A stretch of 30,849 nt of DNA, taken from positions 1 through 30,849 of IMG/VR virus record IMGVR_UViG_3300021368_001504. One strand, written 5' to 3'. Positions 2,695 through 27,729 of this stretch are shown in pieces. The notes under the pieces were generated by a model. It ran no database searches and had not been told where the DNA came from. It worked only from the letters and a program-made list of their open reading frames with translations. The first letter of the stretch is position 1. Each line of letters opens with the position of its first letter. The DNA comes from a virus. The position numbers and the translations under genes were made by a program.

Positions 2695-2704
2695 GGAATA
2701 ATTA

Positions 2705-3484: not shown

Positions 3485-3493
3485 GGAAAGAAT

Positions 3494-9156: not shown

Positions 9157-10304
9157 AAGTTCTTATAATTGGTGATATTATATTAGACAAATATATCTAC
9201 GGCACAAGCAAACGTCTAAGTCCGGAGGCACCTGTACCGGTGGTTACACAAGAACGTACTGTAGAAACACAAGGTGGCGCAGGCTTAGTTTACAAAAATT
9301 TAGAAAGTTTAGGTGTTGATGTAGAACTATTCAATTATTACTATCCTAAAAGCACTAAAACAAGAGTATTGTGTGATGGACATTATATTACACGTATAGA
9401 CGATGATGTTATTGTACCTGGTGAAAATACATTAGAAGATATTTTAAAAAAGGACTTTAGTGAATACACATTTGTTATACTAAGCGATTACAACAAAGGT
9501 GTATTAGAATACTCAAACGATATTATAAAACATATTAATAGTTTCAATTGTAAAGTTATTGTAGATCCTAAACGTCACATAAGTTGTTACGAAGGTGCTT
9601 GGTTAATAAAACCTAATAGCAAAGAATATAAAGAATTTGAAGTTGATCAGTGGACTGGTAATTTTATTACAACAAATGCAGGAGATAATGTTATTGCTGA
9701 TATAGATAATATCATGTACAGTATTCCTGTAGAAAATGTAGAAGTTTCAGATGTAACAGGTGCTGGAGATTGTTTTTTAGCAGGTTTTGTTTATGGACTA
9801 ACAAAAGGATACGATTTCAAAAAAGCCTTAGAACTTGGTGTAAGAGGGTCAACCGAAAGTGTCAAACACGTAGGTACTTATATCTTAACTGAAAAGGACC
9901 TAATTAAACGTGTTGTGTTTACTAATGGGTGTTTTGATGTGCTTCACAAAGGACATCTTACATTATTGAAAGAAGCACGTATGCAAGGTGATAAGTTAAT
10001 AGTAGGATTGAACAGTGACGAAAGTGTTAAACGGTTAAAAGGTGACTCAAGACCAATCAACGATGTTAACACACGTAAAGAACAACTTTTGCTTATTCCT
10101 TATGTAGACGAAGTAATTATATTCGATCATGATACTCCATATAAACTTATAAAAGATATACAACCAGACTTAATTGTAAAAGGCGGCGACTATACCGTAG
10201 AAGAAATTGTAGGACACGATTTATCACCAGTATATATAGTTCCAACAGTAGAAGGGCATAGCACCACAAGGATAATAAATGAAAATATTGATTACAGGAC
10301 ATAA
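9153..10304 (+). CDS. hldE: Bifunctional heptose-7-phosphate kinase / heptose-1-phosphate adenylyltransferase (HldE)
   Basis: A 383-residue fusion. The kinase half (1-240, PfkB fold) starts 'VLIIGDIILDKYIYGTSKRL' and has 'SPEAPVPVV', 'QGGAG' and the catalytic 'TGAGDCFLAG' with Asp206. The adenylyltransferase half (about 250-383) has 'FTNGCFDVLHKGHL' with HxGH at 265-268, 'VGLNSDESVKRLKG' and 'DLIVKGGDY'. These match HldE (RfaE), which phosphorylates D-glycero-D-manno-heptose 7-phosphate at C1 and later adenylylates heptose 1-phosphate. It is about 95 residues shorter than the E. coli enzyme, mainly through a compact kinase half. It couples to its neighbours by an ATGA overlap upstream and a 26 bp overlap with the epimerase gene downstream. 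Confidence 0.92.
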   Translation: MKVLIIGDIILDKYIYGTSKRLSPEAPVPVVTQERTVETQGGAGLVYKNLESLGVDVELFNYYYPKSTKTRVLCDGHYITRIDDDVIVPGENTLEDILKKDFSEYTFVILSDYNKGVLEYSNDIIKHINSFNCKVIVDPKRHISCYEGAWLIKPNSKEYKEFEVDQWTGNFITTNAGDNVIADIDNIMYSIPVENVEVSDVTGAGDCFLAGFVYGLTKGYDFKKALELGVRGSTESVKHVGTYILTEKDLIKRVVFTNGCFDVLHKGHLTLLKEARMQGDKLIVGLNSDESVKRLKGDSRPINDVNTRKEQLLLIPYVDEVIIFDHDTPYKLIKDIQPDLIVKGGDYTVEEIVGHDLSPVYIVPTVEGHSTTRIINENIDYRT

Positions 10305-11088
10305 AGGTTTTATAGGACAAAATCTTATGTCCTATTTAGAGACTGACCACGAAGTAGCTGGATATGATTTTCATCCAGAAAACTTGCCTCTTGTTAAAGA
10401 TTATGATTGGGTAATACATTTAGGCGCAATTAGTTCAACTACTGAAACAGATGTAGATAAAGTTATATTACACAACTATGAATTTTCCAAGTGGTTGTTT
10501 AATCAATGTAATCAATATAATGTAAACATGCAATATGCTTCAAGTGCAAGTGTTTACGGAAGCACAACACATTTCAAAGAAGACGGACCTAGTGACCCTA
10601 AAAGTCCATATGCCTGGAGCAAGTATTTGTTTGATAGATGGGTAACAGGTATACATCCAAAAATTATATTCCAAGGATTTCGTTATTTTAATGTATATGG
10701 TCCTAACGAAGAACACAAAGGCAATCAAGCAAGCCCTATTACAAAATTTACAAAACAAGCAAAAGAAGAAGGTAAAATTACAATTTTTACAGATAGCGAA
10801 AACTATAAAAGAGATTTTGTGTGTGTTAGTGACATATGTGAGATACATGAAAAAATGTTTGACGTAAAAGAAAAAGGTGTGTATAATGTAGGAACAGGAA
10901 CAGCAATCAGTTTCAAGGAAATAGCGGATTTAATTGCACAAAAGCACAACGCAGAAATAAAATATATACCTATACCAGATAATATAAAAAGTCAGTATCA
11001 AAAATTTACGTGTGCCAACCTTGAACGTTTAAGTACTGTTGTAAAACACAACTTTAGAACAGTAAAGGAATATATAAATGAGCACTAG
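10279..11088 (+). CDS. hldD: ADP-heptose 6-epimerase-like extended SDR (HldD-like)
   Basis: A 269-residue protein with Rossmann GxxGxxG at 7-13 ('TGHKGFIG'), 'HLGAISSTTETD' (the HldD signature), 'SSASVYG', catalytic Tyr111-x3-Lys115 ('YAWSK'), 'RYFNVYGPNEEHKGNQAS' (HldD has 'YGPREGHKGSMAS') and 'KRDFVCVSD'. These point to ADP-L-glycero-D-manno-heptose 6-epimerase rather than a generic UDP-sugar epimerase. It is about 40 residues shorter than bacterial HldD. It begins inside the 3' end of hldE and overlaps the next gene by 11 bp. It would convert ADP-D,D-heptose to ADP-L,D-heptose for the upstream transferase. Relation to HldD is strong; exact substrate is inferred. Confidence 0.85.
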   Translation: MKILITGHKGFIGQNLMSYLETDHEVAGYDFHPENLPLVKDYDWVIHLGAISSTTETDVDKVILHNYEFSKWLFNQCNQYNVNMQYASSASVYGSTTHFKEDGPSDPKSPYAWSKYLFDRWVTGIHPKIIFQGFRYFNVYGPNEEHKGNQASPITKFTKQAKEEGKITIFTDSENYKRDFVCVSDICEIHEKMFDVKEKGVYNVGTGTAISFKEIADLIAQKHNAEIKYIPIPDNIKSQYQKFTCANLERLSTVVKHNFRTVKEYINEH

Positions 11089-11596
11089 TCTTTTTATTGT
11101 TGATGATTTTCTACCTAAGCCAGATCTAGTAAGAGAACAAGCAATTCAATTAGATTATCCGACTATAGGATCTTTCCCCGGCATGCGTACACTTGCGGCA
11201 GATGATGCCTATCAGATGTATTGTAAAACAAGATTTGAAGATATCTTGGGTGTAAAAATTATAAATTGGCTTATGGATAGCTTTTGCTTTCAACTGTGTT
11301 ATGAAGGTGCAGAGACTTGGGTTCACAAAGATCCTAGCATGTGGGCAGGTGTTTTGTATCTTAGTCCAGATGCGCCTATAGAAGCTGGAACAGGAATATT
11401 TAAAGAAGTTGCACCACAAGATTTTGAATTAATTGATGCCATCGGAAATGTATACAATAGATTAATTTTATACAGAGGTGATTTGTTGCATAGAAGTTTA
11501 CTATCTGGTTTTGGCAACTCACCCGAAACAGGAAGATTGACGCAAGTATTCTTTTTTGATGTAAATGCACAGCCTGCAGGAGGATGGGAAGCATGA
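11078..11596 (+). CDS. 2OG-Fe(II) oxygenase-like protein, DUF6445-like (cassette oxygenase C)
   Basis: A 172-residue protein. 'SFCFQLCYEGAETWVHKDPS' contains His83-Lys-Asp85, followed by 'WAGVLYLSPDAP' and 'GTGIF', then 'LILYRGDLLHRS' with the distal His138 and Arg153. This is the HxD...H...R layout of Fe(II)/2OG enzymes and resembles the family I know as DUF6445. The opening 'LFIVDDFLPKPDLVREQAIQ' is also usual for that family. It overlaps hldD by 11 bp and the next oxygenase gene by 4 bp. The substrate is unknown. Confidence 0.75.
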   Translation: MSTSLFIVDDFLPKPDLVREQAIQLDYPTIGSFPGMRTLAADDAYQMYCKTRFEDILGVKIINWLMDSFCFQLCYEGAETWVHKDPSMWAGVLYLSPDAPIEAGTGIFKEVAPQDFELIDAIGNVYNRLILYRGDLLHRSLLSGFGNSPETGRLTQVFFFDVNAQPAGGWEA

Positions 11597-12195
11597 GTAC
11601 AGATGCAATATGGCCAACGTGGATTTATAATACTGTTGTAAAAAATCATGAAGAAGTATACAAAGAATTCCTGCCAATGCTAAATGATGATGACAACTTT
11701 GACAGTCCTTGGACATTTGGAGACTGTAAAAGTAGTATTAGGAATAAAAACAACGATAGTTTTCCTTGGCAGGCATGGTTTGAGGAAATTAGACCATATG
11801 TAGAAGAACATTTGCAAAGTTTAGAACCTATAGAACCATACATGATACACAGTGACGAATTTTGGGTAAACATATACAGTAAAGGTGATTATCAAGAAAG
11901 CCATGAACATGCATTTCCCGGACGTTCACTTAGTGCAATTTATATTATGGAATTAGATAAAGACACAGAAGGTGGAGAATTAGTTTTTGAGTGTCCTAAT
12001 TTTTCAACTGTAAAGTTTAGTGGGTTAAATAGAATATTTAATAAATGGCAATATCAGCATATTATGCCTAATTTGGAACCAGGAACTCTGTTGTTATTTC
12101 CTAGTTGGCTGACACACTATGTTTTACCTTTGAGATCTGAAAAAAGAAGAATAACACTAGCCGCAAATTTTAGTATTAAGGAAGCAAATGAGTAG
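11593..12195 (+). CDS. 2OG-Fe(II) oxygenase, 'FPSWLxHxV' family (cassette oxygenase D)
   Basis: A 200-residue protein. I chose ATG 11593 because AGGAGG lies at 11578-11583, 9 bp upstream, and it gives the ATGA overlap with the previous gene; the ATG at 11584 abuts the Shine-Dalgarno. 'WVNIYSKGDYQESHEH' carries the HxH pair (104, 106), 'LSAIYIMELDKDTEGGELVF' the jelly-roll centre, 'PGTLLLFPSWLTHYVLPL' the distal His175, and 'EKRRITLAANF' the 2OG-binding Arg. This is a textbook member of the putative 2OG-Fe(II) oxygenase family common in marine T4-like phages, and a complete version of the fold seen at 8641. Confidence 0.85.
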   Translation: MSTDAIWPTWIYNTVVKNHEEVYKEFLPMLNDDDNFDSPWTFGDCKSSIRNKNNDSFPWQAWFEEIRPYVEEHLQSLEPIEPYMIHSDEFWVNIYSKGDYQESHEHAFPGRSLSAIYIMELDKDTEGGELVFECPNFSTVKFSGLNRIFNKWQYQHIMPNLEPGTLLLFPSWLTHYVLPLRSEKRRITLAANFSIKEANE

Positions 12196-12550
12196 ATTAC
12201 AAGGTGAAGTTGAAAAAGGTTGGGGTAGCGAAACAATATTTGCTACAAATGATTTGTATTGCGGCAAATTATTAAACTTTCACACAGGTGCAAAGTTTAG
12301 TATGCATTTGCACAAAGACAAAGATGAAACTTGGTACGTGCTAAGTGGTAAATTTGTAGTAAAAACCATTGACACAAAAACTGCTGATATAGTTGCTACG
12401 TCTTTGAAAAAAGGAGATACATGGCATAATCCACCTATGCTACCACACCAATTATTGTGTTTAGAAGAAGGTACAATTATAGAAGTAAGTACCCCTGACA
12501 GTGTGGAAGATAATTACAGAGTTGAAAAAGGAGATAGCCAGATTGTCTAG
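12188..12550 (+). CDS. Single-domain cupin, mannose-6-phosphate isomerase type II-like
   Basis: A 120-residue cupin. The beginning 'VEKGWGSETIF' resembles the 'V.KPWG.E' start of type II phosphomannose isomerase/cupin domains. Cupin motif 1 is 'HLHKDKDETWYVLSG' (His40, His42, Glu47) and motif 2 'PPMLPHQLLCLEEG' (His87), so all four metal ligands are present. 'DNYRVEKGD' near the C-terminus also fits sugar-cupin families. Such proteins isomerise or bind phosphosugars. Its role in the heptose cassette is uncertain, and an unrelated sugar-modifying reaction is possible. It overlaps both neighbours (8 bp each). A distant paralogue is encoded at 23369-23728. Confidence 0.8.
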   Translation: MSRLQGEVEKGWGSETIFATNDLYCGKLLNFHTGAKFSMHLHKDKDETWYVLSGKFVVKTIDTKTADIVATSLKKGDTWHNPPMLPHQLLCLEEGTIIEVSTPDSVEDNYRVEKGDSQIV

Positions 12551-13352
12551 AACTTTGTTTATAGGTTGTAGTCATACTATGGGTTATTTAGATCCAAACC
12601 CTACATCAGACACACCTCCTAAACCGTGGCAAGACAACAATTACGCAGAATATTATGCAAAAGAAAATAATAAACCTGTTGTAATAATGGCAAGTGCGGG
12701 AGCAGGTAATAGTTTATGGCCAAGATTTTTAGCCTATGCTTTTCAAAATTATTATGACATAGATGAAGTTTTTGTTCAAAGCACATATTGGGGAAGATTT
12801 GCTATTGCAATGAATCCTAATTTAGATGCACATAATATTTTGCCTATTGATTATTTTATAGAAAAAGAAAAAAGCGACGAGCTTGTTGAGAGATATAGTT
12901 TAGGATTATATCAAGATAAGTTTGTTGAATATTATCTTAAACCAGAATCATACGATTATGATGAACTGCCTTATAATCGTTATACTGCACCGTTTGTTGC
13001 AGAGCCCGATGTTAGACGTAGTAGTCATATGTACATAAGAATGTGGCATTATTCAAATACACATTTAGATCAATATGATTATTTTAAAGATGTATTAGCT
13101 TGCGATGCACTTTGTCATTACAATAACGTCAAGATGCATTTATGGAATATAAATGATAGATGTTTTATACCAAAAGAAACAAACAGTTGGTTGACAACTT
13201 TACAGGCAACAAAAATTGCAAACGTAGATGCAGAAAGTTTTTTAAAAAATAAAAATAAAAATATTAAATTAGCTGACACCGAACACTACTCAAAAGAAAC
13301 ACATGAGTTAATTGCAAAAGAATATATACCTTATGTAAAGGATACACAATGA
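12543..13352 (+). CDS. SGNH/GDSL-like hydrolase family protein
   Basis: I chose the TTG at 12543 because AAGGAG lies at 12528-12533, 9 bp upstream, and the conserved core begins at once: 'SRTLFIGCSHTMGYLD'. A GTG at 12501 would add 14 residues with no ribosome site. 'GCSHT' takes the place of GDS(L) with Ser as putative nucleophile, 'ASAGAGNSLW' provides Gly/Asn block residues, and 'DTEHYSKETHELIAKEY' near the C-terminus supplies the Asp-x2-His pair. The product is 269 residues. SGNH enzymes remove or transfer acyl groups on glycans and lipids, so glycan acetylation or deacetylation would suit the cassette. The fold assignment is good; the reaction is inferred. Confidence 0.6.
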   Translation: MSRTLFIGCSHTMGYLDPNPTSDTPPKPWQDNNYAEYYAKENNKPVVIMASAGAGNSLWPRFLAYAFQNYYDIDEVFVQSTYWGRFAIAMNPNLDAHNILPIDYFIEKEKSDELVERYSLGLYQDKFVEYYLKPESYDYDELPYNRYTAPFVAEPDVRRSSHMYIRMWHYSNTHLDQYDYFKDVLACDALCHYNNVKMHLWNINDRCFIPKETNSWLTTLQATKIANVDAESFLKNKNKNIKLADTEHYSKETHELIAKEYIPYVKDTQ

Positions 13353-13927
13353 AAGATGATTATAACGGAATAGAAGAATATCCGCTTGCTTACGAGGAAG
13401 AATATTGTGAAGAAATAATCAAACACTTTACAGTAATGGCTAGAAATGCAGTTACATACAAACAAGACAAACTTGAAGTGAATCAAGATGAACGTATTGT
13501 ATTTGATTGGGCTCATACACAAAATCAATATCACTATGATTTTAAATTATGCGATTATTTTTACAAAAGATTACATGAAGTTTATACAACAGCCTATATG
13601 GAAAAATATCAAATGTTAAAGAACAGTGAGCAACATAGTCCTAAAGGCATGAGTATACAAAAATCAAAACCACATCAAGGATATCACGCCTGGCATGCTG
13701 AAGCCGCTGATATTGGTTCCTGTTCAAGAGTAATGAATTACATGTTGTATCTAAATGATGTAGAAGAAGGCGGCGAAACAGAATTCCTATATCAAGGAGT
13801 AAAACTTAAACCAGAAACAGGTAAGCTAGTTATCTTTCCAACAAGTTATATGTATCCTCACAGAGGCAATCCTATTTACAAAGGCGAGAAATATATAATA
13901 ACAGGTTGGTATACATATGATAGATAA
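13349..13927 (+). CDS. 2OG-Fe(II) oxygenase, P4H-like (cassette oxygenase E)
   Basis: A 192-residue protein with ATGA overlap to the preceding gene. 'YHAWHAEAADIGSCSRVMNY' gives His116-x-Glu118, with Glu rather than the common Asp as the carboxylate ligand. 'YLNDVEEGGETEFLYQG' is the characteristic P4H turn, 'GKLVIFPTSYMYPHRGNP' provides the distal His171, and 'KYIITGWYTYD' the C-terminal strand with Lys181 in the place usually held by the 2OG-binding residue. The pattern is recurrent in marine T4-like phage hydroxylases. It probably hydroxylates a protein or sugar; substrate unknown. It overlaps gmhB by 11 bp. Confidence 0.85.
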   Translation: MKDDYNGIEEYPLAYEEEYCEEIIKHFTVMARNAVTYKQDKLEVNQDERIVFDWAHTQNQYHYDFKLCDYFYKRLHEVYTTAYMEKYQMLKNSEQHSPKGMSIQKSKPHQGYHAWHAEAADIGSCSRVMNYMLYLNDVEEGGETEFLYQGVKLKPETGKLVIFPTSYMYPHRGNPIYKGEKYIITGWYTYDR

Positions 13928-14513
13928 GTATAAAGTTGCAAACGCGGCTCCTGCAATTCCTACAAAGTGTGTAATAGGATTAGACAGAGACGGAGTAATT
14001 AACAAAGACTTAGGCACATATGTTACCTCACCTAGCCAATTTGAACCAATTGACGGCAGTCTTGAAGCAATAGCTCACATGCGAAGGCTAGGACATCGTA
14101 TTGTTATTCTGACCAACCAAGGAGGAATAGAAAAGGGTATTATGACTCCTGAACATGTAGATAAAGTACATGAGCATATGCTAGATTTATTTGGGCAAGC
14201 CGGTTGTCCTAGTATTGAAGGAATATACTATAGCGAAAGCAGTCAAAAAAATGATATGTATGCAAAACCAAACGCAGGTATGTTCAAACGGTGTGCAAAA
14301 GAGGTTCCAGGAATAAAATGGTCACAAGGATTTTTTGTTGGTGACAAAATGAGTGATCTACGTGCCGCTATTAAAGTAGGAGCAAGGCCTGTCCTAGTTA
14401 GAACCGGATATGGACTTGAAACAGAAAAACAGCTAAATAAGTATACATATAGGGACATTCGAAAGAAAACCTATGTATTTGACGATTTAGCTGATTTTGC
14501 AAGCCAGCTTTAA
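13917..14513 (+). CDS. gmhB: HAD phosphatase, GmhB-like (heptose 1,7-bisphosphate 7-phosphatase)
   Basis: A 198-residue HAD enzyme: motif I 'GLDRDGVINKD' (Asp23, Asp25), 'ILTNQGGIEKG' (Thr66, Asn67), 'KPNAGMF' (Lys117) and motif IV 'FVGDKMSDLRAA' (Asp143). The DRDGVIN and TNQ motifs are those of the GmhB/histidinol-phosphatase subfamily. The Cys/His zinc loop normally lying before the KP(N/H) motif is absent: residues 104-116 are 'YYSESSQKNDMYA' with no Cys. In an ADP-heptose cassette it would remove the C7 phosphate between the two HldE reactions. It is the last gene of the cassette. Without the zinc loop, substrate choice could differ from bacterial GmhB. Confidence 0.8.
   Translation: MIDKYKVANAAPAIPTKCVIGLDRDGVINKDLGTYVTSPSQFEPIDGSLEAIAHMRRLGHRIVILTNQGGIEKGIMTPEHVDKVHEHMLDLFGQAGCPSIEGIYYSESSQKNDMYAKPNAGMFKRCAKEVPGIKWSQGFFVGDKMSDLRAAIKVGARPVLVRTGYGLETEKQLNKYTYRDIRKKTYVFDDLADFASQL
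14433..14439 (+). promoter_or_regulatory. Possible phage late promoter (CTAAATA)
   Basis: CTAAATA near the 3' end of gmhB is the same heptamer found before the gp18 gene at the window's right end. It lies about 90 bp before the next virion gene (ATG 14528). It overlaps coding sequence and may be chance. Confidence 0.2.
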
Positions 14514-14869: not shown

Positions 14870-16402
14870 ATGGCTTTCCCAGTAGCTCCCGTATTCGATA
14901 GAATTAGACTAGTACCTCGTCCAACTGATTTTTTGGACAGGAATACGGGTGCTAGTGGTGAGCTATTTTACGAAAAAGAAACCAAAACACTTCGTGTATA
15001 CAATGGATTACAACGTGGCGGGTTTGAAGTTGTAAGCGAAGAACGTTTAAGAATAAACACAGCAAACTTAGAAATTGCAACAGTAAAGTATAATACATTT
15101 ATAGGCAATGATGGTGTAGCTAACAAATATTATTTTAATAACGATTTTACAAACTATGCTCCTGCATTGACTTTTGTAGTAGGATTTACATATAGATTTG
15201 ATCAATCAAATTACACGAATTTGTTTTATCCTAATCCAGAAGGCGGCACTCTAAATCCGCATCCGTTAGAATTTAGTGTGCAAGAAAATGGCACATTAGG
15301 TGGAGGTGTTCAGTACACTGAAGGTGTTGTATATCTTTTAGATGATGCAGAAGTAACTAGAGAAAAATACTTAGAAGATTTTACTAGCTCTACAACTAGA
15401 GCAATACAAATTACAGTAACATCAAATACTCCCACTACATTATATTATTATTGCACAAATCATACAGGTATGGGAGCAGTTATTAATGTTGGCATGCCTG
15501 GATCAGGATCAGGAGGCGGAACGTCTAGCGGTAGTGCAAGTATTACAGCAAGTGATACAGCACCAACTGAACCTAATGCAGGAGCTCTTTGGTATAATAG
15601 TGCAACTGGTTATTTGTATGTTTATGTAGATGACGGTGATAGTCAACAATGGGTACAGCCTGTAGCAGGTAATGTTTTCAGCGGTGTGTATGGAGATTTA
15701 GTAGGTACACCTACTTTTGCAACTGTTGCTAACACCGGCGACTGGAATGACATCCAAAACAAGCCAACTATACCTGCAACACTTACTGATTTAGGTATTT
15801 CAGACGGCACTGCTAATCAAGTCTTAACCACAGACGGTGCAGGCAATTTTACATTTGAAGATGGAGGTGGAGGCTCAGCCTATGATCAAAGTCTTAACAC
15901 TACAGACGATGTAACGTTTGATGAAATCACTGCCACAACAAGTGTAACTGCACCTAGTGTAATTACAAATGGTGTAGGAGTTACAAACTTTACAAGTTCG
16001 ACAAGTTTAACATTATCAGCAACAGACGGCGTGTTCCTTTCAGGAATAGCAAGATCAAGCGAAATAGTAAACACTCTAACTGGAGCAACGTCAACTGTAG
16101 ATCATAGTTTGAATCAAGGTAGTGTATGGAATCACACAAGTATTGCCGCAAACTTTACTGCAAACTTTACAAATGTGCCCACAACAAATGACAGAACTAT
16201 TTCGGTTGCATTGATACTGAATCAAAGTGCATCACCATTTCTTCCTAATGCTGTTCAAATTAACGGAGGCGCTCAAAGTATAAACTGGGAAGATGCATCT
16301 GCACCGACACCTAATGCAAACCAAACAGATGTTGTTGTCTTTACACTTGTACGTACAGGCGGTTCATGGAGCGTGTTAGGGAGTTTAACAACATATGGCT
16401 AA
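14870..16402 (+). CDS. Large tail-fibre-like virion protein with cupredoxin-like domain
   Basis: A 510-residue protein. The N-terminal 'FLDRNTGASGELFYEKETKT' is a typical attachment-type segment of marine T4-like fibre proteins. Residues about 65-207 form a beta domain ending 'LYYYCTNHTGMGAVINV'; with His131 ('NPHPLEFS'), Cys195, His198 and Met201 give the H...Cxx Hxx M ligand order of type-1 copper proteins. A Gly/Ser linker follows (210-225), then 'PNAGALWYNSATGYLYVYVD' and 'TGDWNDIQNKPTIPATLTDL' fibre repeats, and a C-terminal beta domain (about 390-510). It overlaps the next gene by 8 bp. Virion location is well supported by context; copper binding is inference. Confidence 0.8.
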   Translation: MAFPVAPVFDRIRLVPRPTDFLDRNTGASGELFYEKETKTLRVYNGLQRGGFEVVSEERLRINTANLEIATVKYNTFIGNDGVANKYYFNNDFTNYAPALTFVVGFTYRFDQSNYTNLFYPNPEGGTLNPHPLEFSVQENGTLGGGVQYTEGVVYLLDDAEVTREKYLEDFTSSTTRAIQITVTSNTPTTLYYYCTNHTGMGAVINVGMPGSGSGGGTSSGSASITASDTAPTEPNAGALWYNSATGYLYVYVDDGDSQQWVQPVAGNVFSGVYGDLVGTPTFATVANTGDWNDIQNKPTIPATLTDLGISDGTANQVLTTDGAGNFTFEDGGGGSAYDQSLNTTDDVTFDEITATTSVTAPSVITNGVGVTNFTSSTSLTLSATDGVFLSGIARSSEIVNTLTGATSTVDHSLNQGSVWNHTSIAANFTANFTNVPTTNDRTISVALILNQSASPFLPNAVQINGGAQSINWEDASAPTPNANQTDVVVFTLVRTGGSWSVLGSLTTYG

Positions 16403-17996
16403 TGAAAAAGAATATGTGGTTGTTGTACATAGAGGCATAGATTTAGAAGCATTTGATGCAGAGCTTGCCGCTGAAACAGGTGAAGGACCAATTCCAAACA
16501 GAGCAGTAGAAGTAGCAAATCCTAGATGGGGATCAAAACGTATGACCCATTGGATGCTAACAGACGAAGAAGCAGAAGAACTTGCAAACGATGAACGTGT
16601 ATTATCAGTTGAAATACCCGTTGATCAAAGAGATGACATTGAAATTGGGTTAAATGCAAGTCAGTCAGAAGTTTGGTACAGAGCATTAAGCACAGACAAC
16701 AGTCATGTCAATTGGGGCTTGCGTAGATGCATAGAAACAACTAATATCTTTGCCGATACTGTGACATTGCCAGGAGATTACACATATCCCTTAGATGGTA
16801 CTGGTGTAGATTTTGTTGTGCAAGATAGCGGTATAGATCCCGACCATCCTGAATTCCAAGATGCAAATGGTGTTAACCGTGTTCAGCAAATTGACTGGTT
16901 TTCAGGTAGTGGTATAGGCGGCGAATCACAGGATGATAATTTTTACACAGACTATGATGGTCACGGCACTCACTGTGCAAGTACAGCAGTAGGTAAAACT
17001 TTTGGTTGGGGTAAAAATGCAAGAGTATACTCCCAAAAACTAGCAGGACTAGAAGGTGCAGGCGATCCTAACAGTGGTATTAGTATTGCAAATGCATTTG
17101 ATACTATAAGAATATGGCATAATAATAAACCAGTAGATCCTGATACAGGTTTCAAAAGGCCCACAGTTATAAACATGAGTTGGGGCTATGGAACAACACG
17201 ATTTGGCGATCCTACAGATGGAACTTATAGAGGTACTGCATGGACCTATGGTGTTGATTACAATACCAGGGCAGATTTAGAAGCAAACACAGGTGTTCCA
17301 AGAAATAGGATTACGTCTGGAGGTGTTCCTGTTGCGGTTAGATTAAGTATAAGAGTTCCTAGTGTTGATGCAGAAATAGAAGATATGATAGACGACGGCA
17401 TTCACGTTTGTATTGCCGCAGGTAATAATTATCAAAAAATTGATAGCGGTGCAGGCAGTGACTATGCAAACGTAGTCAACTTTGGAGGTAATGTAAGTTA
17501 TCATCAAGGAAGTTCACCTTATAGTACAAGAGCATTTATGGTTGCAAGTGTAGACAGTTTTGTAAATGCATCTAATGAAGAAAAGCCAAGTGTGTTTTCA
17601 AGTAGAGGTCCAGGATGTACCATTTGGGCTCCAGGCAGTAATATAATGGCCGGAACTAGCAGAAATTATGATAATACTAAGTTTAGTCCAATAGAATATT
17701 TTGGTGATAGCGACCATTTCCAAATGTCTATATCAGGAACCAGTATGGCAACACCGCAGGTAGCAGGCGTATGTTGTTTACACCTACAGGTATTTCCTGA
17801 CTTATCACCAGAACAATTACAACAACGTATACTCAGCGACACACAAAATGCTATGGCAACAACAGGATCAGAAACAGATTATGACGATGTTGAAAATACA
17901 TTGCTAGGGCAAACACGACAATTTTTATACAGTAAATACAATCAGGAAAATCCGTGGACACTTACAGGTCCTTCGAATATATCAATAGGAAGTTAA
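16395..17996 (+). CDS. Subtilisin-like serine protease (S8), probably virion-associated
   Basis: A 533-residue protein. The N-terminal 90 residues ('KEYVVVVHRGIDLEAFDAEL') form an inhibitor-I9-like prodomain candidate. The catalytic triad is complete: Asp144 in 'VVQDSGIDPDHPEF', His190 in 'DGHGTHCAS' and Ser450 in 'SGTSMATPQVAGVCCLH'; Asn344 in 'AAGNN' is the oxyanion residue. There is no signal peptide, so it is presumably incorporated into or processes the virion. It sits between two tail-fibre-type genes, overlapping the first and 1 bp from the next. Roles could be maturation of large tail proteins or digestion of host surface protein during attachment. S8 family membership is certain; the role is inferred. 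Confidence 0.92.
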   Translation: MANEKEYVVVVHRGIDLEAFDAELAAETGEGPIPNRAVEVANPRWGSKRMTHWMLTDEEAEELANDERVLSVEIPVDQRDDIEIGLNASQSEVWYRALSTDNSHVNWGLRRCIETTNIFADTVTLPGDYTYPLDGTGVDFVVQDSGIDPDHPEFQDANGVNRVQQIDWFSGSGIGGESQDDNFYTDYDGHGTHCASTAVGKTFGWGKNARVYSQKLAGLEGAGDPNSGISIANAFDTIRIWHNNKPVDPDTGFKRPTVINMSWGYGTTRFGDPTDGTYRGTAWTYGVDYNTRADLEANTGVPRNRITSGGVPVAVRLSIRVPSVDAEIEDMIDDGIHVCIAAGNNYQKIDSGAGSDYANVVNFGGNVSYHQGSSPYSTRAFMVASVDSFVNASNEEKPSVFSSRGPGCTIWAPGSNIMAGTSRNYDNTKFSPIEYFGDSDHFQMSISGTSMATPQVAGVCCLHLQVFPDLSPEQLQQRILSDTQNAMATTGSETDYDDVENTLLGQTRQFLYSKYNQENPWTLTGPSNISIGS

Positions 17997-17997
17997 A

Positions 17998-19977
17998 ATG
18001 CCACGTCTGACACAAGTAGCAGGAATAGGAAAAGGACCAAGTGTAGCCGCATTTGTTACTCCTACTATGGTTTTTGGTGACGATACTACTACAGGTCCTA
18101 TAAATGAAGGCGGCAATATACAAATACAAATTCTTACCACAGGAATACCTGATGGCGGGTCTATACAATATAATCGAGATGGTGGTACTGCAACAGCTAG
18201 TGATTTCAGTATAAGTAGCTTGAGCGGAACCATGACAGTTAACAGTGATAAGGCATTATTAAATTTTACAGTCAACGAAGATTTAACAACAGAAGGTAGT
18301 GAAGAACTTAGATTAAAATTTGAATATGACTATGTTGATCCTACCCTTGGAAATAGGACATTAACTTTAGGTACTCTTGCTATTACTATAACCGACTCAA
18401 GCACCACACCAAGTGTTCCTACATATATTCTCAACAGAAGTTCAGAGTTTGCAAACGAAGGAACCAATTTTACTATCACATTGGTTACTGCTAATGTTAG
18501 CGCGGGCACTACAGTACCCTACACAATTACAGGAGTTTCTAGTGCTGATATAGGCGGAGTAAGTTTAACCGGCTCTTTCGTTACTGGTACGACTGACGAT
18601 GTGACCTTTAATGTTACAGCAGACGCAACTACAGAAAATCAAGAAACATTTAATCTTGCACTTGACAATGGCGAAGATAGTATTACTGTAACCATTAATG
18701 ATACAAGCCTTGATCCAACATATGCTGTAAATGCAAGTAGAGCATCAGTAAACGAAGGAGAAAGTTTTACAGTCAATCTCACAACCACAGACGTACAAGA
18801 CGGAGTTGGTTTAGCATACACAATTACAGGTGTGTCGAGTGCAGATATTGAAGGTGCTTCTCTCACAGGAAGTTTTACTGTTAATAACAATGCCGCTAGT
18901 TTAACTGTGAATACTAGTGAAGACGTAACACTAGGAGAAGGCGAAGAGACATTTACACTATCTCTTGATAATGGTGCAGATGATGTTAGTGTGACTATTG
19001 CTGATACCAGTGTAGATACAACTCCTACATATACAAACTTTTCTTTGCAATCAGCAACATCAGTAAATGAAGGTGGTGCATCAACTTTTAGAATTACAGG
19101 AAGAAATATTGCACAAAACACAACAATAGATGTTAATCTTGTTGGTGTTACAGGAACAATAGCGGCAAATGATTTTGCACCGGCAAGTTTAACAAGAACT
19201 GTTACATGGACTGGAGCAAGTAACCCTATCACACAATCGCAAGACTTTACAATAACATTATCTGAAGATGAAATTACAGAAGGTGCAGAATCCTTTAAAT
19301 GTGTACTAGCATCTACAGACAGCAACGGTACATCAACTGGAGATTTAGAATCTGCTACAATAACAATAGGTGACACTTCATTAACACCTGTTACAGGACA
19401 AGCAGAATATTCCGGTTTAACCACAGGAAACCGTGTAACCACTTTTACAGTACCAGAAGGTGTAACAAGCATCAGCATGTTATGCATAGGTGGTGGCGGA
19501 GGTGGTGGTGGATGTAGTAATATCTACGCAGGTGGCGGAGGTGGTGGTGGTGGCCTATCATATGCAAACAACGTTTCGGTCACTCCAGGAGAAACATTAA
19601 ATATCCAAGCAGGCGGCGCAGGTGCCGCAGGATCCAGAGACGGTAATGGTGGTGCAGGTGGAACAAGCAGTATATCTAGAGGAGCAACTGCACTTTGCTC
19701 TGTAGATGGAGGCGGTGCAGGCACGAGCTCTAATACTGGCGGCACAGGAGGAGGATCAACAGGTGTAGGAACTAGATACTCTGGCGGAGCTGGTGGTACT
19801 GGACAAACATATAGCCGTGGTGGTGGTGGTGGTGCGCTGCCGGATATAGTGGAAACGGTGGAAACGGTCAAAACGGTAGTTCGTCTTTCGCAGGTGGAAA
19901 TGGAGCTGGTGGCGGAGGTGGCGGTGCTGGTTCAGTATCAACTACACAGCCTGGGCAATCAGGTGGAGGTGGTGTAG
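17998..19977 (+). CDS. Giant Calx-beta/Gly-rich virion adhesin, N-terminal part (frame lost near 19831-19841)
   Basis: The frame gives 659 residues, of which about the first 612 look genuine. Residues about 30-465 contain four Calx-beta-like repeats, each with 'NEG..F.I.L.T..V..GT.' strands and ending '.TINDTS' or '.ITDSS'. From about 480 a Gly-domain begins: 'TFTVPEGVTSISMLCIGGGG', the same 'VPxGVT' entry as in phage Gly-rich adhesins. Near base 19831 the Gly-rich reading moves to the -1 frame and this frame continues as 'LPDIVETVETVKTVV', which is unlike the domain. One missing base ('GGTGC' where 'GGTGGC' would keep frame) would restore a continuous protein of about 1,418 residues to base 22253. 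It follows the subtilase by 1 bp. Confidence 0.75.
   Translation: MPRLTQVAGIGKGPSVAAFVTPTMVFGDDTTTGPINEGGNIQIQILTTGIPDGGSIQYNRDGGTATASDFSISSLSGTMTVNSDKALLNFTVNEDLTTEGSEELRLKFEYDYVDPTLGNRTLTLGTLAITITDSSTTPSVPTYILNRSSEFANEGTNFTITLVTANVSAGTTVPYTITGVSSADIGGVSLTGSFVTGTTDDVTFNVTADATTENQETFNLALDNGEDSITVTINDTSLDPTYAVNASRASVNEGESFTVNLTTTDVQDGVGLAYTITGVSSADIEGASLTGSFTVNNNAASLTVNTSEDVTLGEGEETFTLSLDNGADDVSVTIADTSVDTTPTYTNFSLQSATSVNEGGASTFRITGRNIAQNTTIDVNLVGVTGTIAANDFAPASLTRTVTWTGASNPITQSQDFTITLSEDEITEGAESFKCVLASTDSNGTSTGDLESATITIGDTSLTPVTGQAEYSGLTTGNRVTTFTVPEGVTSISMLCIGGGGGGGGCSNIYAGGGGGGGGLSYANNVSVTPGETLNIQAGGAGAAGSRDGNGGAGGTSSISRGATALCSVDGGGAGTSSNTGGTGGGSTGVGTRYSGGAGGTGQTYSRGGGGGALPDIVETVETVKTVVRLSQVEMELVAEVAVLVQYQLHSLGNQVEVV
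19815..19850 (+). other. Apparent -1 frameshift site in the giant adhesin gene
   Basis: Upstream reading is in one frame through the GGT run to 19834. Downstream, 'GGA TAT AGT GGA AAC GGT' from 19842 continues the Gly-rich domain in the -1 frame. A stop in the downstream frame at 19812-19814 limits where the switch can occur. Options are a one-base sequencing or assembly loss in the (GGT)n run, a genuine inactivating deletion, phase variation, or programmed slippage. No canonical X XXY YYZ heptamer is seen. Confidence 0.8.
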
Positions 19978-20156
19978 GTAATAAAGGACAAGGTAGTAAT
20001 GGAGTAGGAGGAAATCTTTACCAAGATGGTGGAGGTGGTTCTGCAGGAGAGTCAGGTCAGGATGGTATAGGAGGAGCCTTTGGAGGAGGCGGCTCTGGTA
20101 CATATAGAACAGGTAATCCTGCTCAAGGTTCTGGACAAAGAGGCGGCGTTGGATCA

Positions 20157-22253
20157 GTGCGTTTGATGTGGCCAGGCACAAGTAGACAATATCCTACTAC
20201 TCGTACAGCAAATGAAAATGTAGTCACAGGAACATATGATACACTTGTAGCAAATAAAACAACAGCCGATGAAGACCCATACACAAATGCAACTCAAACT
20301 ATAACTTTTACACTTACAACCAGTGATGTTCCTGAAGGAACTACTGTAGGATACACTTTTGCAAATATTCAAGGAACTGTTACTGCTAGTGACTTTATCA
20401 ACAGAGACACTATGTTTACAATTGGAAGTGACGGAACTGCAACAGTAAGTATGCAACCAACAGGCGATTTTGCTACAGAAGGTACAGAGATATTTAGATT
20501 ACAACTAGCGGCAACTGATAGTGTAGGATTTGATACTGATGATCTGCAAAGCCAAAATGTAAGCATTGTAGATGATTATCCTGCTACTGTTTACAATGGC
20601 ATAAGTTTAGATAAAACAAATTACAACGAAGGTGAAACTGTAACTATCACAGTGGATTATACAAATAACACAGATAAATCAGTTCAAGTAGCATATACTG
20701 CATCAACAAGTGCAGGCAATCAAACAGATGACCTAAATTACACCTATGGAACTTTAACATTAGTAGACGGTAATACATATGAAGGTTCTCCGTATAACGG
20801 AAATAAAATTGTAATTTCACAAGATTTAACCACAGAGGGTGCAGAGACTCTTACTATTCGCTTGAATGATGAGGACATAAACGGTAATCCGACTAACAAT
20901 AGATCCGCAACAGCAACCATCAACGATACAAGTTTGACGCCAAGAGTTCCAGGACAAAGTCTTGATGGATATATCCAGAAACCTAATTATGACGATCAAG
21001 TAGGTGGTGCAAGACCTTCAGCAGGCTGGGGAAGTGTTTTAGGCGGAGACGACGATTTTGTAGTTGTAGGAAGTTATCTTTCACCAAGGCCAAGCAGTGC
21101 TGGAAGCTATGAAGCGGCTCATGGACAAGTATATATTTATAATAGACAAACAAAAGCGTTACTACACATCATCGAAAATCCACTGACAGGATCCACATAT
21201 GAAAGTGAAAGAAAAATAATGTTTGGAGCAGGAGTTGGTTTATCTAAAGTAGGAAGCACATATTATCTTGCTGTTGCAGGTGATAACTTCAAATACAACG
21301 GAGTTAGTTACTATGATCCAAGAATTTTCGTTTATAAATCTACTAACAACTGGTCAACTTACAGTCTACATAAAACTGCAAGATTAGGAACAGCAGATAC
21401 AGGTAATCCAAACACCCAAAGTGAAAAAAGATTTAGAGTAGGCGGAGATTATCTAGTTTATGGATACAATAACATGTCTAATTCAGGAACTGTAAGATTT
21501 TTGCAATTGAGTTCAAATGGCACTTCAGATCTTTCAACACCAGTATCTCAATGGGAATCAATGGCTAGTAATACATTACAGCAGTACCAAAACTGGGAAG
21601 CTGGTAGTACTGCGGATACCGATGGCACATATATTTTATATGGTAGCTATGAAAGAGATGCTGTACAAGGACCTAATACATATCAAAATGCAGGAGCTGC
21701 CAATATAAATTTCATTTCTAACGGAAACCAATATAGAAGCCAATTAGGAACGTCTTACGCAGGCAGTTCTAGTAATTACACTAATTTTGAATTTGGGAAA
21801 GGTGTTGCTCTTGCTGGTAATTACTATGCTGTAGCATCAGGAGGCGATGATTACAGTGGAAACACAGATGCAGGAAGAGTAAGAACTTTTCTAATATCTT
21901 CAGGAGCAACAAGAGGAACTATAAATAGACCTGTGTTTAGTGAAGGTATTTCTGGAGGAGGAGGATCCAAATTTTATGGAGGTCAGCTAGTTGGAAATTC
22001 AGACGGCTACATAGCAGTTTTATGGCAAGATATCTACGGTTCCGATAATAACACATTAAGAATATATGATGCAAGCAACGGTAGCCAAGTAAATATTGTT
22101 CCTCATCCAGGAAATGTTTTGTATAGCACTAATCTATATAAAAATTTATATCATTATGACTGTATACATTTGACTGATAGTTATGTCTTTACACGAACAA
22201 CTGCTTTAAACACAGACGGAGGCGCGGCCTATGTCCGGATATACATACATTAA
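20157..22253 (+). CDS. Giant Calx-beta/Gly-rich virion adhesin, C-terminal part (beta-propeller-like)
   Basis: The start given is the GTG at 20157, but coding in this frame clearly extends back to about 19836 ('AAGYSGNGGNGQNGSSSFAG'), so this is the downstream half of the gene at 17998 rather than a separate gene; no good ribosome site precedes 20157. After the Gly-rich domain ends ('GGVGSVRLMWPG') come two more Calx-beta-like repeats (about 20190-20575 and 20600-20940, each with 'TEG.E...L.L'). A roughly 430-residue repeat region follows with phrases such as 'DDFVVVGSYLSP', 'GQVYIYNRQT' and 'MFGAGVGLSKVGSTYYLAVA', which resemble FG-GAP/integrin-type beta-propeller blades. A calcium-stabilised stalk with a propeller tip for surface binding is inferred. 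Confidence 0.75.
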   Translation: MRLMWPGTSRQYPTTRTANENVVTGTYDTLVANKTTADEDPYTNATQTITFTLTTSDVPEGTTVGYTFANIQGTVTASDFINRDTMFTIGSDGTATVSMQPTGDFATEGTEIFRLQLAATDSVGFDTDDLQSQNVSIVDDYPATVYNGISLDKTNYNEGETVTITVDYTNNTDKSVQVAYTASTSAGNQTDDLNYTYGTLTLVDGNTYEGSPYNGNKIVISQDLTTEGAETLTIRLNDEDINGNPTNNRSATATINDTSLTPRVPGQSLDGYIQKPNYDDQVGGARPSAGWGSVLGGDDDFVVVGSYLSPRPSSAGSYEAAHGQVYIYNRQTKALLHIIENPLTGSTYESERKIMFGAGVGLSKVGSTYYLAVAGDNFKYNGVSYYDPRIFVYKSTNNWSTYSLHKTARLGTADTGNPNTQSEKRFRVGGDYLVYGYNNMSNSGTVRFLQLSSNGTSDLSTPVSQWESMASNTLQQYQNWEAGSTADTDGTYILYGSYERDAVQGPNTYQNAGAANINFISNGNQYRSQLGTSYAGSSSNYTNFEFGKGVALAGNYYAVASGGDDYSGNTDAGRVRTFLISSGATRGTINRPVFSEGISGGGGSKFYGGQLVGNSDGYIAVLWQDIYGSDNNTLRIYDASNGSQVNIVPHPGNVLYSTNLYKNLYHYDCIHLTDSYVFTRTTALNTDGGAAYVRIYIH

Positions 22254-22274: not shown

Positions 22275-23126
22275 ATGGCAATAGATTTTCCAAATTCACC
22301 AGCATTAAATGATACACATATCGTAGGTAACATCACGTGGACATGGACCGGCAGTGCTTGGGCTATACTAAGCAGTGTAGGTGGCGGCGGCGGAGTAGGC
22401 ACACAGAATACTTTTGCTACAGTAGCCGGTGACTCAGGCAGTGTAGAAGCATCTAGTCCAACAGATACTCTTACAATAGCTGGAGGCACAGACATTTCAA
22501 CCACAGTTACAGGTTCAACAGTAGAAATAGCATACACCGGATCTGGTGGTGGAGGAGGAGGAGGTGGTGCATCATCACTTAACGAGCTGTCAGATGTAAA
22601 TATTTCAAATCCTCAAGAAGGTGAAGTGTTAAAATACAGTGCAGGGGAATGGGCAAACGGCACAGACGCTACAGGAGAAGGCGGTGGCGGTGGCGCATCT
22701 AACTTCACAGATCTAGGAGATGTACCAACAGGTTTGACACCTGCAAGTTTTTATGAACATGCTATTGCAACACTAAGAGTTGATAATGTAAACGCAGATG
22801 CATACACATTCAACAGTCATTACAGCGGAGACAATCCTACAATATATGTAATAAGCGGAACAACAATTGCTTTTGATTTAACAGATATTAGTGGACACCC
22901 GTTTTTGATACAAGATTCTACAGGTAGTAACATTACTACAGGACTTGTACACATTGCAACAGATGGAACTGTAAGTTCAAATACAAATGCACAAGGTCAA
23001 TCAAGCGGAGTATTGTATTGGAGGATTCCAGAAACTCTAGCAAGTCCTCCAAACTATAGATATCAATGCCAAAGCCATAGTTCTATGGTAGGGCCTATAA
23101 CTATAAAACGTCTAAGTACCCTTTAG
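22275..23126 (+). CDS. Tail-fibre-like protein with cupredoxin-like C-terminal domain
   Basis: A 283-residue protein. The start 'MAIDFPNSPALNDTHIVGNI' followed by 'TWTWTGSAW' is a widespread attachment module of marine T4-like fibre proteins. Gly-rich linkers at 35-41, 90-99 and 134-140 separate short segments such as 'LNELSDVNISNPQEGEVLKY'. Residues about 155-283 form a beta domain containing 'ISGHPFLIQDS' (His208) and 'YRYQCQSHSSMVGPITIK' (Cys265, His268, Met271), the same ligand order as in the protein at 14870. It is the last plus-strand gene of the block and overlaps a convergent minus-strand gene by 15 bp. Copper binding is plausible but unproven. Confidence 0.8.
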   Translation: MAIDFPNSPALNDTHIVGNITWTWTGSAWAILSSVGGGGGVGTQNTFATVAGDSGSVEASSPTDTLTIAGGTDISTTVTGSTVEIAYTGSGGGGGGGGASSLNELSDVNISNPQEGEVLKYSAGEWANGTDATGEGGGGGASNFTDLGDVPTGLTPASFYEHAIATLRVDNVNADAYTFNSHYSGDNPTIYVISGTTIAFDLTDISGHPFLIQDSTGSNITTGLVHIATDGTVSSNTNAQGQSSGVLYWRIPETLASPPNYRYQCQSHSSMVGPITIKRLSTL

Positions 23127-24169: not shown

Positions 24170-25648
24170 TTAGAAATTTAAATACCAGGTGCCAACTGGA
24201 TAAGAACCGTCATAGGCTAGGACCCATTCATCATTGGCATACTTATATTGCTTGCCAGTGTTAAGATTAGTTGTGTATACTACAGTACTATCATCTTCGC
24301 TTGCATCAAATACTATATGCCAACGTGTGCCGTCCCATTCAACAATGTCATTAGCACCTGCTATAAAGTCTGATCCGTCAGCATTTTTCCAAGCATCTGG
24401 TCCATCATAAGCACTATCACCTACAGAGTCGCTTGTGTTAATAGGTTCTAATATTAATATTCTTGCATCGCCAGCTTTAATTGTATCTGGATTTGTTTTA
24501 TATGGATTTATTATGTAATCTATTTTATTTCTATTACCGGACGGTCCAGACATGATAGTGTCTGCAGGTAGTGTATCTGTATCCCAGTTTATGCTTAGTT
24601 CATATTCATCCAACGGATTTATAGTAACAGTGCCTACAATTTCGTTATCGAGGTCTGCTCTGCGTAAGTGTAGATTTGTTACACCTGCGTTGAAATCAAA
24701 CGGTAAAGATTTTATGTAACCTGTCCACGTTTCTGCACCTACTATGCCTTTCCCTACAAGTTTTGCTGTATTACCTAACACTAACAATTCATAATTATCA
24801 TGTGCAGTAGTTACTGTTGCTGTAACATCTAACTTTACAACACCTTCTGTTGATGTTTGCTCTTCGATTTCACCAGTACCTGCTACTGCAATTCTTATGT
24901 TTTGATCGTTCTCAGGTTTAGGTGTTCCATCATACCCCTGTATAGTAGGTCTCGATAAATCAAGATCGATAGTGCCTTGTGTTTCATTGAAAATACTTGT
25001 AACAACTTGTGTAATAACACCAAGTCTTTTTACTTTTACAGGTGGGCTTATAAAGATAGGTGTGTTAAATGTTAGTGTTGCAACATCTATTTCACTATCT
25101 ACTCCTACAGGTACACTCCTACTGCTAAAAGTAATGTTTTCAAGATTCACTACACTTAGACTTGTCCAATCAATATAATTATCTGTGGTTTGTATTTCTA
25201 GGCTTGGATTAAACAGCATAAGTATCTGTTCTAGGATTTGTAATTTTTGATCAGTATTGCTAGACCATACATCTACATTCACTGTAAGCGTGTAAGGTGT
25301 TGGCATTAATCTTTCTACTGTGTAATTTTTACCTTCTTTATCTAGATATTCATTACCTACGCTATCATACTTTTGTTCACGAATATTAACTTTATTAACA
25401 TAACTTGAATCTGCAAGTCGTGCAGTATCCATTGCAAGGCCAGTGATATACACTGCCATGCGCGGCGCACTTGGTATTTTATTCTCAGAATTTTCTCTAA
25501 TTATATTTGCTACTTGACGTGTAAGATCTCCATACATTACAGGAACTTGAGTAAGAGCACCTTTACCATCTTTATAGGAAAAGTTACTCATTAACCGCAC
25601 CATTTGCGTAATGTACCTTCTTATTTGTCCGTCATAAAAATGTTGCAT
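24170..25648 (-). CDS. 15: Tail completion / proximal sheath stabilisation protein gp15-like, C-terminally extended
   Basis: A 492-residue protein. The first 240 residues align by eye with T4 gp15: 'FYDGQIRRYITQMVRLMSNF' (T4 'FYNSSFRRYATLMGDLFSNI'), 'VPVMYGD', 'MPTPYTLTVNVDVWSSNTDQ', 'ILEQILMLFNPSL' and 'LTFNTPIFISPPV'. Gp15 caps the tail tube and sheath and joins the tail to the neck. T4 gp15 has 272 residues; here about 220 extra residues contain beta-rich sequence and 'NDIVEWDGTRWHIVFDAS', a fibre-like motif I associate with marine relatives. Its start overlaps the stop of the preceding gene as TAATG, in one operon with gp14. Confidence 0.75.
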   Translation of the reverse strand: MQHFYDGQIRRYITQMVRLMSNFSYKDGKGALTQVPVMYGDLTRQVANIIRENSENKIPSAPRMAVYITGLAMDTARLADSSYVNKVNIREQKYDSVGNEYLDKEGKNYTVERLMPTPYTLTVNVDVWSSNTDQKLQILEQILMLFNPSLEIQTTDNYIDWTSLSVVNLENITFSSRSVPVGVDSEIDVATLTFNTPIFISPPVKVKRLGVITQVVTSIFNETQGTIDLDLSRPTIQGYDGTPKPENDQNIRIAVAGTGEIEEQTSTEGVVKLDVTATVTTAHDNYELLVLGNTAKLVGKGIVGAETWTGYIKSLPFDFNAGVTNLHLRRADLDNEIVGTVTINPLDEYELSINWDTDTLPADTIMSGPSGNRNKIDYIINPYKTNPDTIKAGDARILILEPINTSDSVGDSAYDGPDAWKNADGSDFIAGANDIVEWDGTRWHIVFDASEDDSTVVYTTNLNTGKQYKYANDEWVLAYDGSYPVGTWYLNF

Positions 25649-26721
25649 TATTCGTCGCCTAAATCTAAAGGATAATGTAAAGGTGATGGAGGCTTTTTAC
25701 CAAATCTTAATGTCCTTGGGCTATTTGGATGTCTATAAATTTTAAATCCGATCATACTGAATATCCTGCTTAACTCTCTTACAAAGGTAATAGGAACTTC
25801 AGGATCATATTTTATATCATTGAGTATGTCATTACCGATAGGTACTCCAAATTTTTCTTTGTATGCTATAATTACCTCTTTGAAATGTGCAGGCGTTTCA
25901 ATTCTTTTCAATGCTCGAATTATTCTAGCTTCACTTGTTCCTAATCCTTCTATTCCTGCTCTTACTTCGTCAATAATTTCTGGAACAATTGCTTTCTGTC
26001 CTTCAGTAGCACCTGCTTCTCCTTCTTTGCCTGATTTGCCTTCTCCTGACTTGCCAGCATCACCTCCAGGCGCCACAATACCAACCATTAGCTTTTGACC
26101 AGGATTTTTTCGCATGTATTCTCGCATTGTTTTTTCAAACGGAGTGCCTTTAATTGCACCAACAGCAGTTCCAGTTGCAGGATCAACTAATGCACCAACT
26201 TGATCCTGCTTTTCATGTCTAGTGTCTAATATAATTAATTCTTTAAGCCTATCTTTATCATAGTCGAGGGCTTTAGGATCTTTCCCCCACTCGGATTGTG
26301 AATCATCTTTCAAAAATTCTCTGTAATCTTTTATTACTTTACTGACCCTAACCGGATCATAATTTACAATTCCTCCTATTATCTTGTAACCTTTATCTTT
26401 TTGAGCATTTTTGTCACCGTCATTTGAGGGGAAAAGATCTGTAATAGGCATTTCTCTACCGTTTTTATCTACAGTTTGAATGGCTACAATTTTAAAAGAT
26501 TTATCAATGTCTTTGTAATTTTGTAAGATAAAATCGGTCATTGCCTTATATACCTTTTCTTTACCTTGTTGGATAAAATCCCATGGAACTTTATCAACAG
26601 AAAACTTTTCGGTTTGAGTATCAACAGTAATTACAAGTTTAAATAAATCTTTCCCATCATACCCAAAGGAGGTTAAACCTTTTGCTTCTTTTTCTATAAT
26701 TTTTATATCAGTGTATCTCAT
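25648..26721 (-). CDS. Neck-operon protein with an annexin-like repeat
   Basis: A 357-residue protein between gp14 and gp15. Residues 1-210 are an unrecognised alpha/beta region. Residues about 219-241 form a short Gly-rich collagen-like linker ('GGDAGKSGEGKSGKEGEAG'). Residues about 247-303 contain 'AGIEGLGTSEARIIRALKRI' and 'IIAYKEKFGVPIGNDILNDI', which match the annexin repeat pattern (GLGT-D/E near the start, 'AYKEKFG' and a final acidic residue). In eukaryotic annexins this type-II site binds calcium and phospholipid. Only one repeat is seen here. The C-terminus is basic and Pro-rich. Virion association is likely from context; function is unknown. Confidence 0.7.
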   Translation of the reverse strand: MRYTDIKIIEKEAKGLTSFGYDGKDLFKLVITVDTQTEKFSVDKVPWDFIQQGKEKVYKAMTDFILQNYKDIDKSFKIVAIQTVDKNGREMPITDLFPSNDGDKNAQKDKGYKIIGGIVNYDPVRVSKVIKDYREFLKDDSQSEWGKDPKALDYDKDRLKELIILDTRHEKQDQVGALVDPATGTAVGAIKGTPFEKTMREYMRKNPGQKLMVGIVAPGGDAGKSGEGKSGKEGEAGATEGQKAIVPEIIDEVRAGIEGLGTSEARIIRALKRIETPAHFKEVIIAYKEKFGVPIGNDILNDIKYDPEVPITFVRELSRIFSMIGFKIYRHPNSPRTLRFGKKPPSPLHYPLDLGDE

Positions 26722-26730
26722 AGCATCTCT

Positions 26731-27729
26731 CTAACTAAAGTCCGGCAACGGAATAATCTCAGGATTGTTTTCATCTGGCACTTCTGTAGGCGGCACCTTC
26801 TTAGGTGGTTCCTTCTTAGGTGGTTCCTTCTTAGGTGGCTCTTTCTTAGGTGGCTCCTTCTTAGGTGGTTCTTTCTTAGGTGGCTCTTTCTTAGGTGGCT
26901 CTTTCTTAGGTGGTTCCTTCTTAGGTGGTTCTTTCTTAGGTGGTTCCTTCTTAGGTGGTTCTTTTTTCTCTGGCGGCGTTTTTTCTGGTTTTGCAGGTTT
27001 TTCTTTTTTAGGTGGCTCTATCTTTTTAGGTGGCTCTTTCTTTATTTCCGGCTTTGTCTTTTGTTTTGGCGTAACAGGAACACCGTCATCCCAATTATCA
27101 TCGGGTTTTTGTATTGTAGGTGTATCTTTCTTTACGTCAGGCTTTTTAATAGTTTTATCAGTATCAGGCGTTGTTTCCGGTTCTACTGTTCCAGGTTTTG
27201 TAGGTATAACTTTGTCTAACTTATCTGTTTTAAGTTCTCCACCTGGTGTTGTAATGTCGCTATCACCACCACCTGATGTATCATTGCCTGGTAATTTACT
27301 AGGTGGTGTATATCCTCGAATTCCAGGATCACCGTCTCCGCCCTTGTCTGTGCCTTTATCTCCTAGGCCATCGCCTGTACCTTTATCACCTATACCGTCA
27401 CCTGTTGTGCCTTTACCCAGTCCTTCTCCATCTTCCCCGCTACCTTTATCTTTGCCCTGGGTACTGTTACCTGGTCCGTCACCCGGAACTTTACCTGAGC
27501 CCGAACCTTTGAACGGTCCTTTACCTGGACCTTCTGAACACGCCATAAGATATTCAGTCCACTGTGGGTAATCTACTAAGAATTCATCTCTGTTTCTATC
27601 TGCTAAACTTATACGTTTTGCATTTTTACTTGCATAAGCATTTGTGATTGCGGCACAAAGTTGAACAGGACCTTTATAACCTTCAATAAGTCTTTCTTCG
27701 CATTTTTTTAAATCTTTATTGTATTTCAT
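26731..27729 (-). CDS. Low-complexity (KKEPP)n protein of the neck operon
   Basis: A 332-residue protein in three parts. Residues 1-66 are a folded-looking domain with three Cys ('KKCEERLIEGYKGPVQLCAA'). Residues about 67-150 are Gly/Lys/Asp-rich. Residues about 190-320 are Pro/Lys/Glu-rich, including about ten tandem KKEPP pentapeptides. The ordered head may anchor it to the neck or tail while the long extended arm protrudes. Proline/lysine arms resemble TonB-type periplasm-spanning rods in composition, but no TonB domain follows. It begins directly at the gp14 stop and ends 9 bp before the next gene. Confidence 0.7.
   Translation of the reverse strand: MKYNKDLKKCEERLIEGYKGPVQLCAAITNAYASKNAKRISLADRNRDEFLVDYPQWTEYLMACSEGPGKGPFKGSGSGKVPGDGPGNSTQGKDKGSGEDGEGLGKGTTGDGIGDKGTGDGLGDKGTDKGGDGDPGIRGYTPPSKLPGNDTSGGGDSDITTPGGELKTDKLDKVIPTKPGTVEPETTPDTDKTIKKPDVKKDTPTIQKPDDNWDDGVPVTPKQKTKPEIKKEPPKKIEPPKKEKPAKPEKTPPEKKEPPKKEPPKKEPPKKEPPKKEPPKKEPPKKEPPKKEPPKKEPPKKEPPKKEPPKKVPPTEVPDENNPEIIPLPDFS
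26793..26965 (-). repeat. 15-bp tandem repeat encoding KKEPP, about 11 units
   Basis: On the plus strand the unit reads close to CTTCTTAGGTGGTTC, and the core TTCTTAGG recurs every 15 bp eleven times. Units differ only at synonymous positions (TTC/CTC and CTT/TTT alternation), so the pentapeptide is conserved. A multiple-of-3 period keeps copy-number changes in frame. Confidence 0.9.

Follow-up and report, generated by a model that had tools for sequence, protein, structure and literature searches.

A tail-adhesin gene read in two frames in a marine phage contig is a single open reading frame in its relatives

Results

The virus record IMGVR_UViG_3300021368_001504 is a marine phage fragment of 30,849 bases, which we analyzed over its whole length and refer to as the window. 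Its tail and structural genes are typical of a contractile-tailed phage, and the nearest counterparts of its tail-sheath-like protein come from large phages, PA5oct and Atu_ph07 among them; the source is a jumbo-myovirus-like marine phage. On the plus strand, an S8 subtilase gene recognized by a domain match and by its relatives (16395..17996) is followed by the coding region studied here (17998-22253) and then by a baseplate wedge/tail fibre connector-like gene supported by a profile match and relatives (22275..23126). The subtilase stands before the adhesin in seven of seven related records. Tail-gene neighborhood and domain content together suggest that the encoded tail protein is probably cell-binding, and it is in this sense that we call it an adhesin.

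Frame A is open from an ATG at 17998 to a TAG at 19975 (ORF 17998-19977), while frame B, offset from it by -1, stays open from 19815 to a TAA at 22251 (end 22253). The preliminary description of this DNA had proposed a giant adhesin split by a -1 frame change near 19831-19841; homology confirms the split and places the crossover at 19833/19834, inside a glycine-rich domain and adjoining a five-unit GGT run at 19819-19833 (run and crossover point together, 19819..19841, plus strand). In a DNA alignment each of the four closest relatives has exactly one base more than the window at 19833/19834, and the window shows nothing else unusual there. The profile phrog_4474 matches the upstream ORF product (residues 352-613 against profile positions 75-290, E 2.4e-19) and continues in the downstream frame (residues 1-130 against positions 278-405, E 4.4e-13), and in tblastn every relative carries both halves in a single uninterrupted frame. 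The crossover is therefore not a product of chance, and the 17998-19977 ORF and frame B (19815-22253) are two pieces of one gene. As it stands, the upstream ORF encodes 659 residues, the last 47 of which form an out-of-frame, valine-rich tail (19834..19977, plus strand) ending at the TAG at 19975.

The comparison with relatives called for in the preliminary description found the gene as a single ORF of 1,387-1,472 codons in seven related records from five lineages; none of the seven is frame-shifted, and in one the end of the contig truncates the gene. The closest are L004 (1,410 codons), L005 (at least 1,302 codons, identical to L004 and cut by the contig end), L006 (1,424 codons) and L007 (1,428 codons); the more distant L028, L052 and L031 have single ORFs of 1,387, 1,387 and 1,472 codons. 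Intact orthologues lie on the IMG/VR contigs 3300035135_001837, 3300042731_005770, 3300020401_001611 and 3300020446_000004, the 3300042731 copy being identical to that of 3300035135 and cut at its contig end. These four share with the window the order S8 protease, adhesin, connector and a protein identity of 52-82%, but theirs is a single ORF of 1,410-1,428 codons whereas the window copy is split. The intact ORFs bear out the earlier expectation that restoring the missing base would yield a single protein about 1,418 residues long. At the crossover all four close relatives encode six glycines in mixed GGN codons, as many as the window, and nine further viral contigs also carry the glycine-rich motif in an open frame. 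Viral contigs searched for an exact copy of the junction string gave no hit, a gapped search for either allele was equally empty, and no second contig of the window's population was thus recovered. In an annotated phage collection the upstream half gave partial Calx-beta matches only and the downstream half no relative, and the upstream half also found none among bacterial or archaeal genome contigs.

Read across the crossover, the protein would begin with Calx-beta-like repeats and the first half of the glycine-rich domain in frame A (17998..19833, plus strand), continue in frame B with the second half of that domain and more Calx-beta-like repeats (19836..20948, plus strand), and end in a beta-propeller-like tip (20949..22253, plus strand). 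Calx-beta repeats had been described in both halves, and this holds at the level of repeat similarity: alignment of the downstream half to the upstream repeats in relatives gives 29-31% identity. The Pfam evidence is thinner, since in the window the Calx-beta match stays below threshold upstream and is missing from the downstream half, although it is above the cut-off in L006. The Pfam model Gly_rich_2 (PF21722) covers window residues 479-612 with its first 60%, the domain being interrupted there, whereas relatives match the whole model. The window resembles phrog_4474 (unknown function) and phrog_863 (annotated as tail fiber assembly) in combining Calx-beta-like and glycine-rich parts; relatives match these families without a break, but the window copy is spread over two frames. 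The profile match across the glycine-rich region places the gene in the phrog_4474 glycine-rich tail-protein family.

The propeller-like end of the downstream half, also anticipated earlier, agrees with structure prediction: AlphaFold2 models the 434-residue C-terminal region as an all-beta, propeller-like structure with predicted repeated four-stranded blades, at moderate confidence (mean pLDDT 67, pTM 0.78). Fold searches with this model returned WD40, integrin and FG-GAP-type propellers, among them an Atu_ph07 protein named hemagglutinin, at a TM of only about 0.5, although many of the WD40 and FG-GAP-type matches have a probability of 1.00. The nearest relative of the gene changes at about 20949, from L004 before that point to L006/L007 after it, the tip sharing 84% protein identity with L006 vs. 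35% with L004. Such a pattern reads as a domain exchange between phage lineages, the usual modular swapping of tail-protein tips, and the gene belongs among the ordinary modular tail adhesins, its beta-propeller tip having been exchanged. A frame break at the recombination boundary was considered and rejected, the identity pattern switching near 20949, more than 1 kb downstream of the break.

The two halves of the gene have similar dN/dS. Against L004, L006 and L007 the ratio is 0.22-0.25 upstream, and downstream it is about 0.15-0.21, taken to 20940 against the same three records and over the propeller against L006/L007 only, since the exchanged tip is too diverged from L004 for the measure. 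On the window's own lineage we count 35 synonymous and 7 non-synonymous changes upstream and 35 synonymous and 10 non-synonymous changes in 19839-20940 (p=0.59 vs. upstream). By these counts the downstream half is still under purifying selection, with no decay, and the break is therefore either very recent or absent from the living phage.

The adhesin is also the only broken gene among the window genes that have a comparable relative, all others being in frame; this comparison excluded two genes at 25648-27729 that lack a close match. No frame break occurs at about 80 S8-protease loci of the same collection, and frame breaks are thus uncommon in it, yet one in 30 kb is not surprising.

Discussion

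A single gene with a private one-base lesion, no slippery site and no decay downstream leaves a choice among several origins. We consider it somewhat more probable than otherwise that the contig carries a consensus error at 19833/19834, with a recent private mutation as the main rival. One base lost from this record breaks a single tail-adhesin frame; the loss is private to the record and without a programmed role, and on this reading it would have arisen through a sequencing, amplification or strain-mixed assembly slip in a G-rich, low-complexity stretch. The living phage would then make a single protein about 1,418 residues long, the presence of the base in real molecules being inferred, in which a Calx-beta-like stalk, a glycine-rich middle and more Calx-beta-like repeats lead to a beta-propeller tip, the probable point of contact with the host. 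The per-read rate of Illumina indel errors is low, at about 3-5 per million bases (PMC4787001), and a pure read error is therefore unlikely if the contig is well-covered Illumina; the intact frames at about 80 S8-protease loci of the collection also weigh against an error. Strain mixing or amplification, we infer, can drop a base from a G-rich repetitive tract. The sequencing or assembly slip offered as an alternative in the preliminary description thus becomes the best single reading, one whose proof would take reads.

Host selection can change phage tail genes, and a real, recent and private frameshift in the phage population is a serious, if less probable, account. The protein would then stop at 659 residues and lack the propeller tip, with the adhesin either crippled or its loss tolerated by way of another receptor-binding protein. 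The difference is a single clean base in a contig otherwise frame-intact, and the rarity of Illumina indel errors (PMC4787001) speaks for such a mutation as well. Against it, the window lineage bears no sign of relaxed selection downstream, seven of seven related records are intact, and the product would end in 47 out-of-frame residues within a half-built glycine-rich domain. Programmed -1 ribosomal frameshifting yielding a minor long form would have the right direction and a precedent in phage structural genes, where Ig-like extensions of virion proteins of T3 and A2 are made in this way (PMC5009743), and the window shares with those systems a beta-sandwich-bearing structural protein and a -1 frame change. 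It differs from them in having no slippery site and a frame change that is not conserved: the overlap (19813-19977) holds no X XXY YYZ heptamer, the best P/A-site re-pairing reaches 3/6 bases, the one 90-base stretch of downstream RNA folded does no better than its shuffles (z=0.33), and relatives need no shift, with a single ORF in seven of seven. We regard programmed frameshifting as very improbable.

The earlier suggestion that the tract is a phase-variable switch, with GGT-run slippage toggling short and long adhesins at a contingency locus, is unsupported and, in our estimate, even harder to credit than programmed frameshifting. The short pure GGT run at the break does recall the repeats of SSR phase-variable genes (PMC7911514), which likewise sit at a frame break, but the window's repeat has a three-base unit, is too short at only five units and is invariant among relatives. 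GGT slippage keeps the frame because it moves by three bases; the tract is thus neither a homopolymer nor a repeat with a unit that is not a multiple of three, and the longest homopolymer nearby is AAA. Nor does repeat number vary between on and off states among relatives: glycine number is constant at six, in mixed codons, in the four close ones, and no shifted relative occurs among the seven records. That both forms coexist, a segregating one-base change giving phages with and without the propeller tip and hence a bet-hedging adhesin switch, we likewise hold to be very improbable. Least credible of all is a pair of separate genes in which translation of the second begins at GTG 20157, where a 698-codon ORF is listed. 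The preliminary description had seen no independent start downstream; this GTG is a possible one, but it has no convincing ribosome-binding site and lies 180 bases past the upstream stop, family homology extends 320 bases further upstream in frame B, the site falls within one ORF in all relatives, and re-initiation there would skip more than 300 bases of conserved coding sequence in frame B.

The split giant adhesin of this metagenomic phage contig is one gene and should be annotated accordingly rather than as two proteins or a switch. Should the change turn out to be genuine and to recur, it would provide a rare example of a phage that disables the receptor-binding tip it carries.

Other features of the window

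Orthologues of the window subtilase in L031, L052, L055, L058-L062, L073, L079 and L066-L071, L083 carry in-frame inserts of about 310 or about 130 residues at one common position, just after the catalytic-Asp motif; inteins were considered as their identity and rejected, the insert ends not being intein-like. A sugar-related cluster at 5177-14513 encodes a carbamoyltransferase, an epimerase, a HAD phosphatase, a cupin, a PfkB kinase-cytidylyltransferase fusion (HldE-like), four 2OG-Fe(II) oxygenase-like proteins and one DUF6445 protein, a gene content suggesting that the phage makes or modifies surface sugars. At 1912-4306 lie three tandem paralogues of about 260 residues each, cysteine- and glycine-rich and with no match in a Pfam search, which are conserved in L007's contig. 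Finally, the reverse strand at 26731-27729 encodes a protein with a long PPKKEPPKK repeat array.
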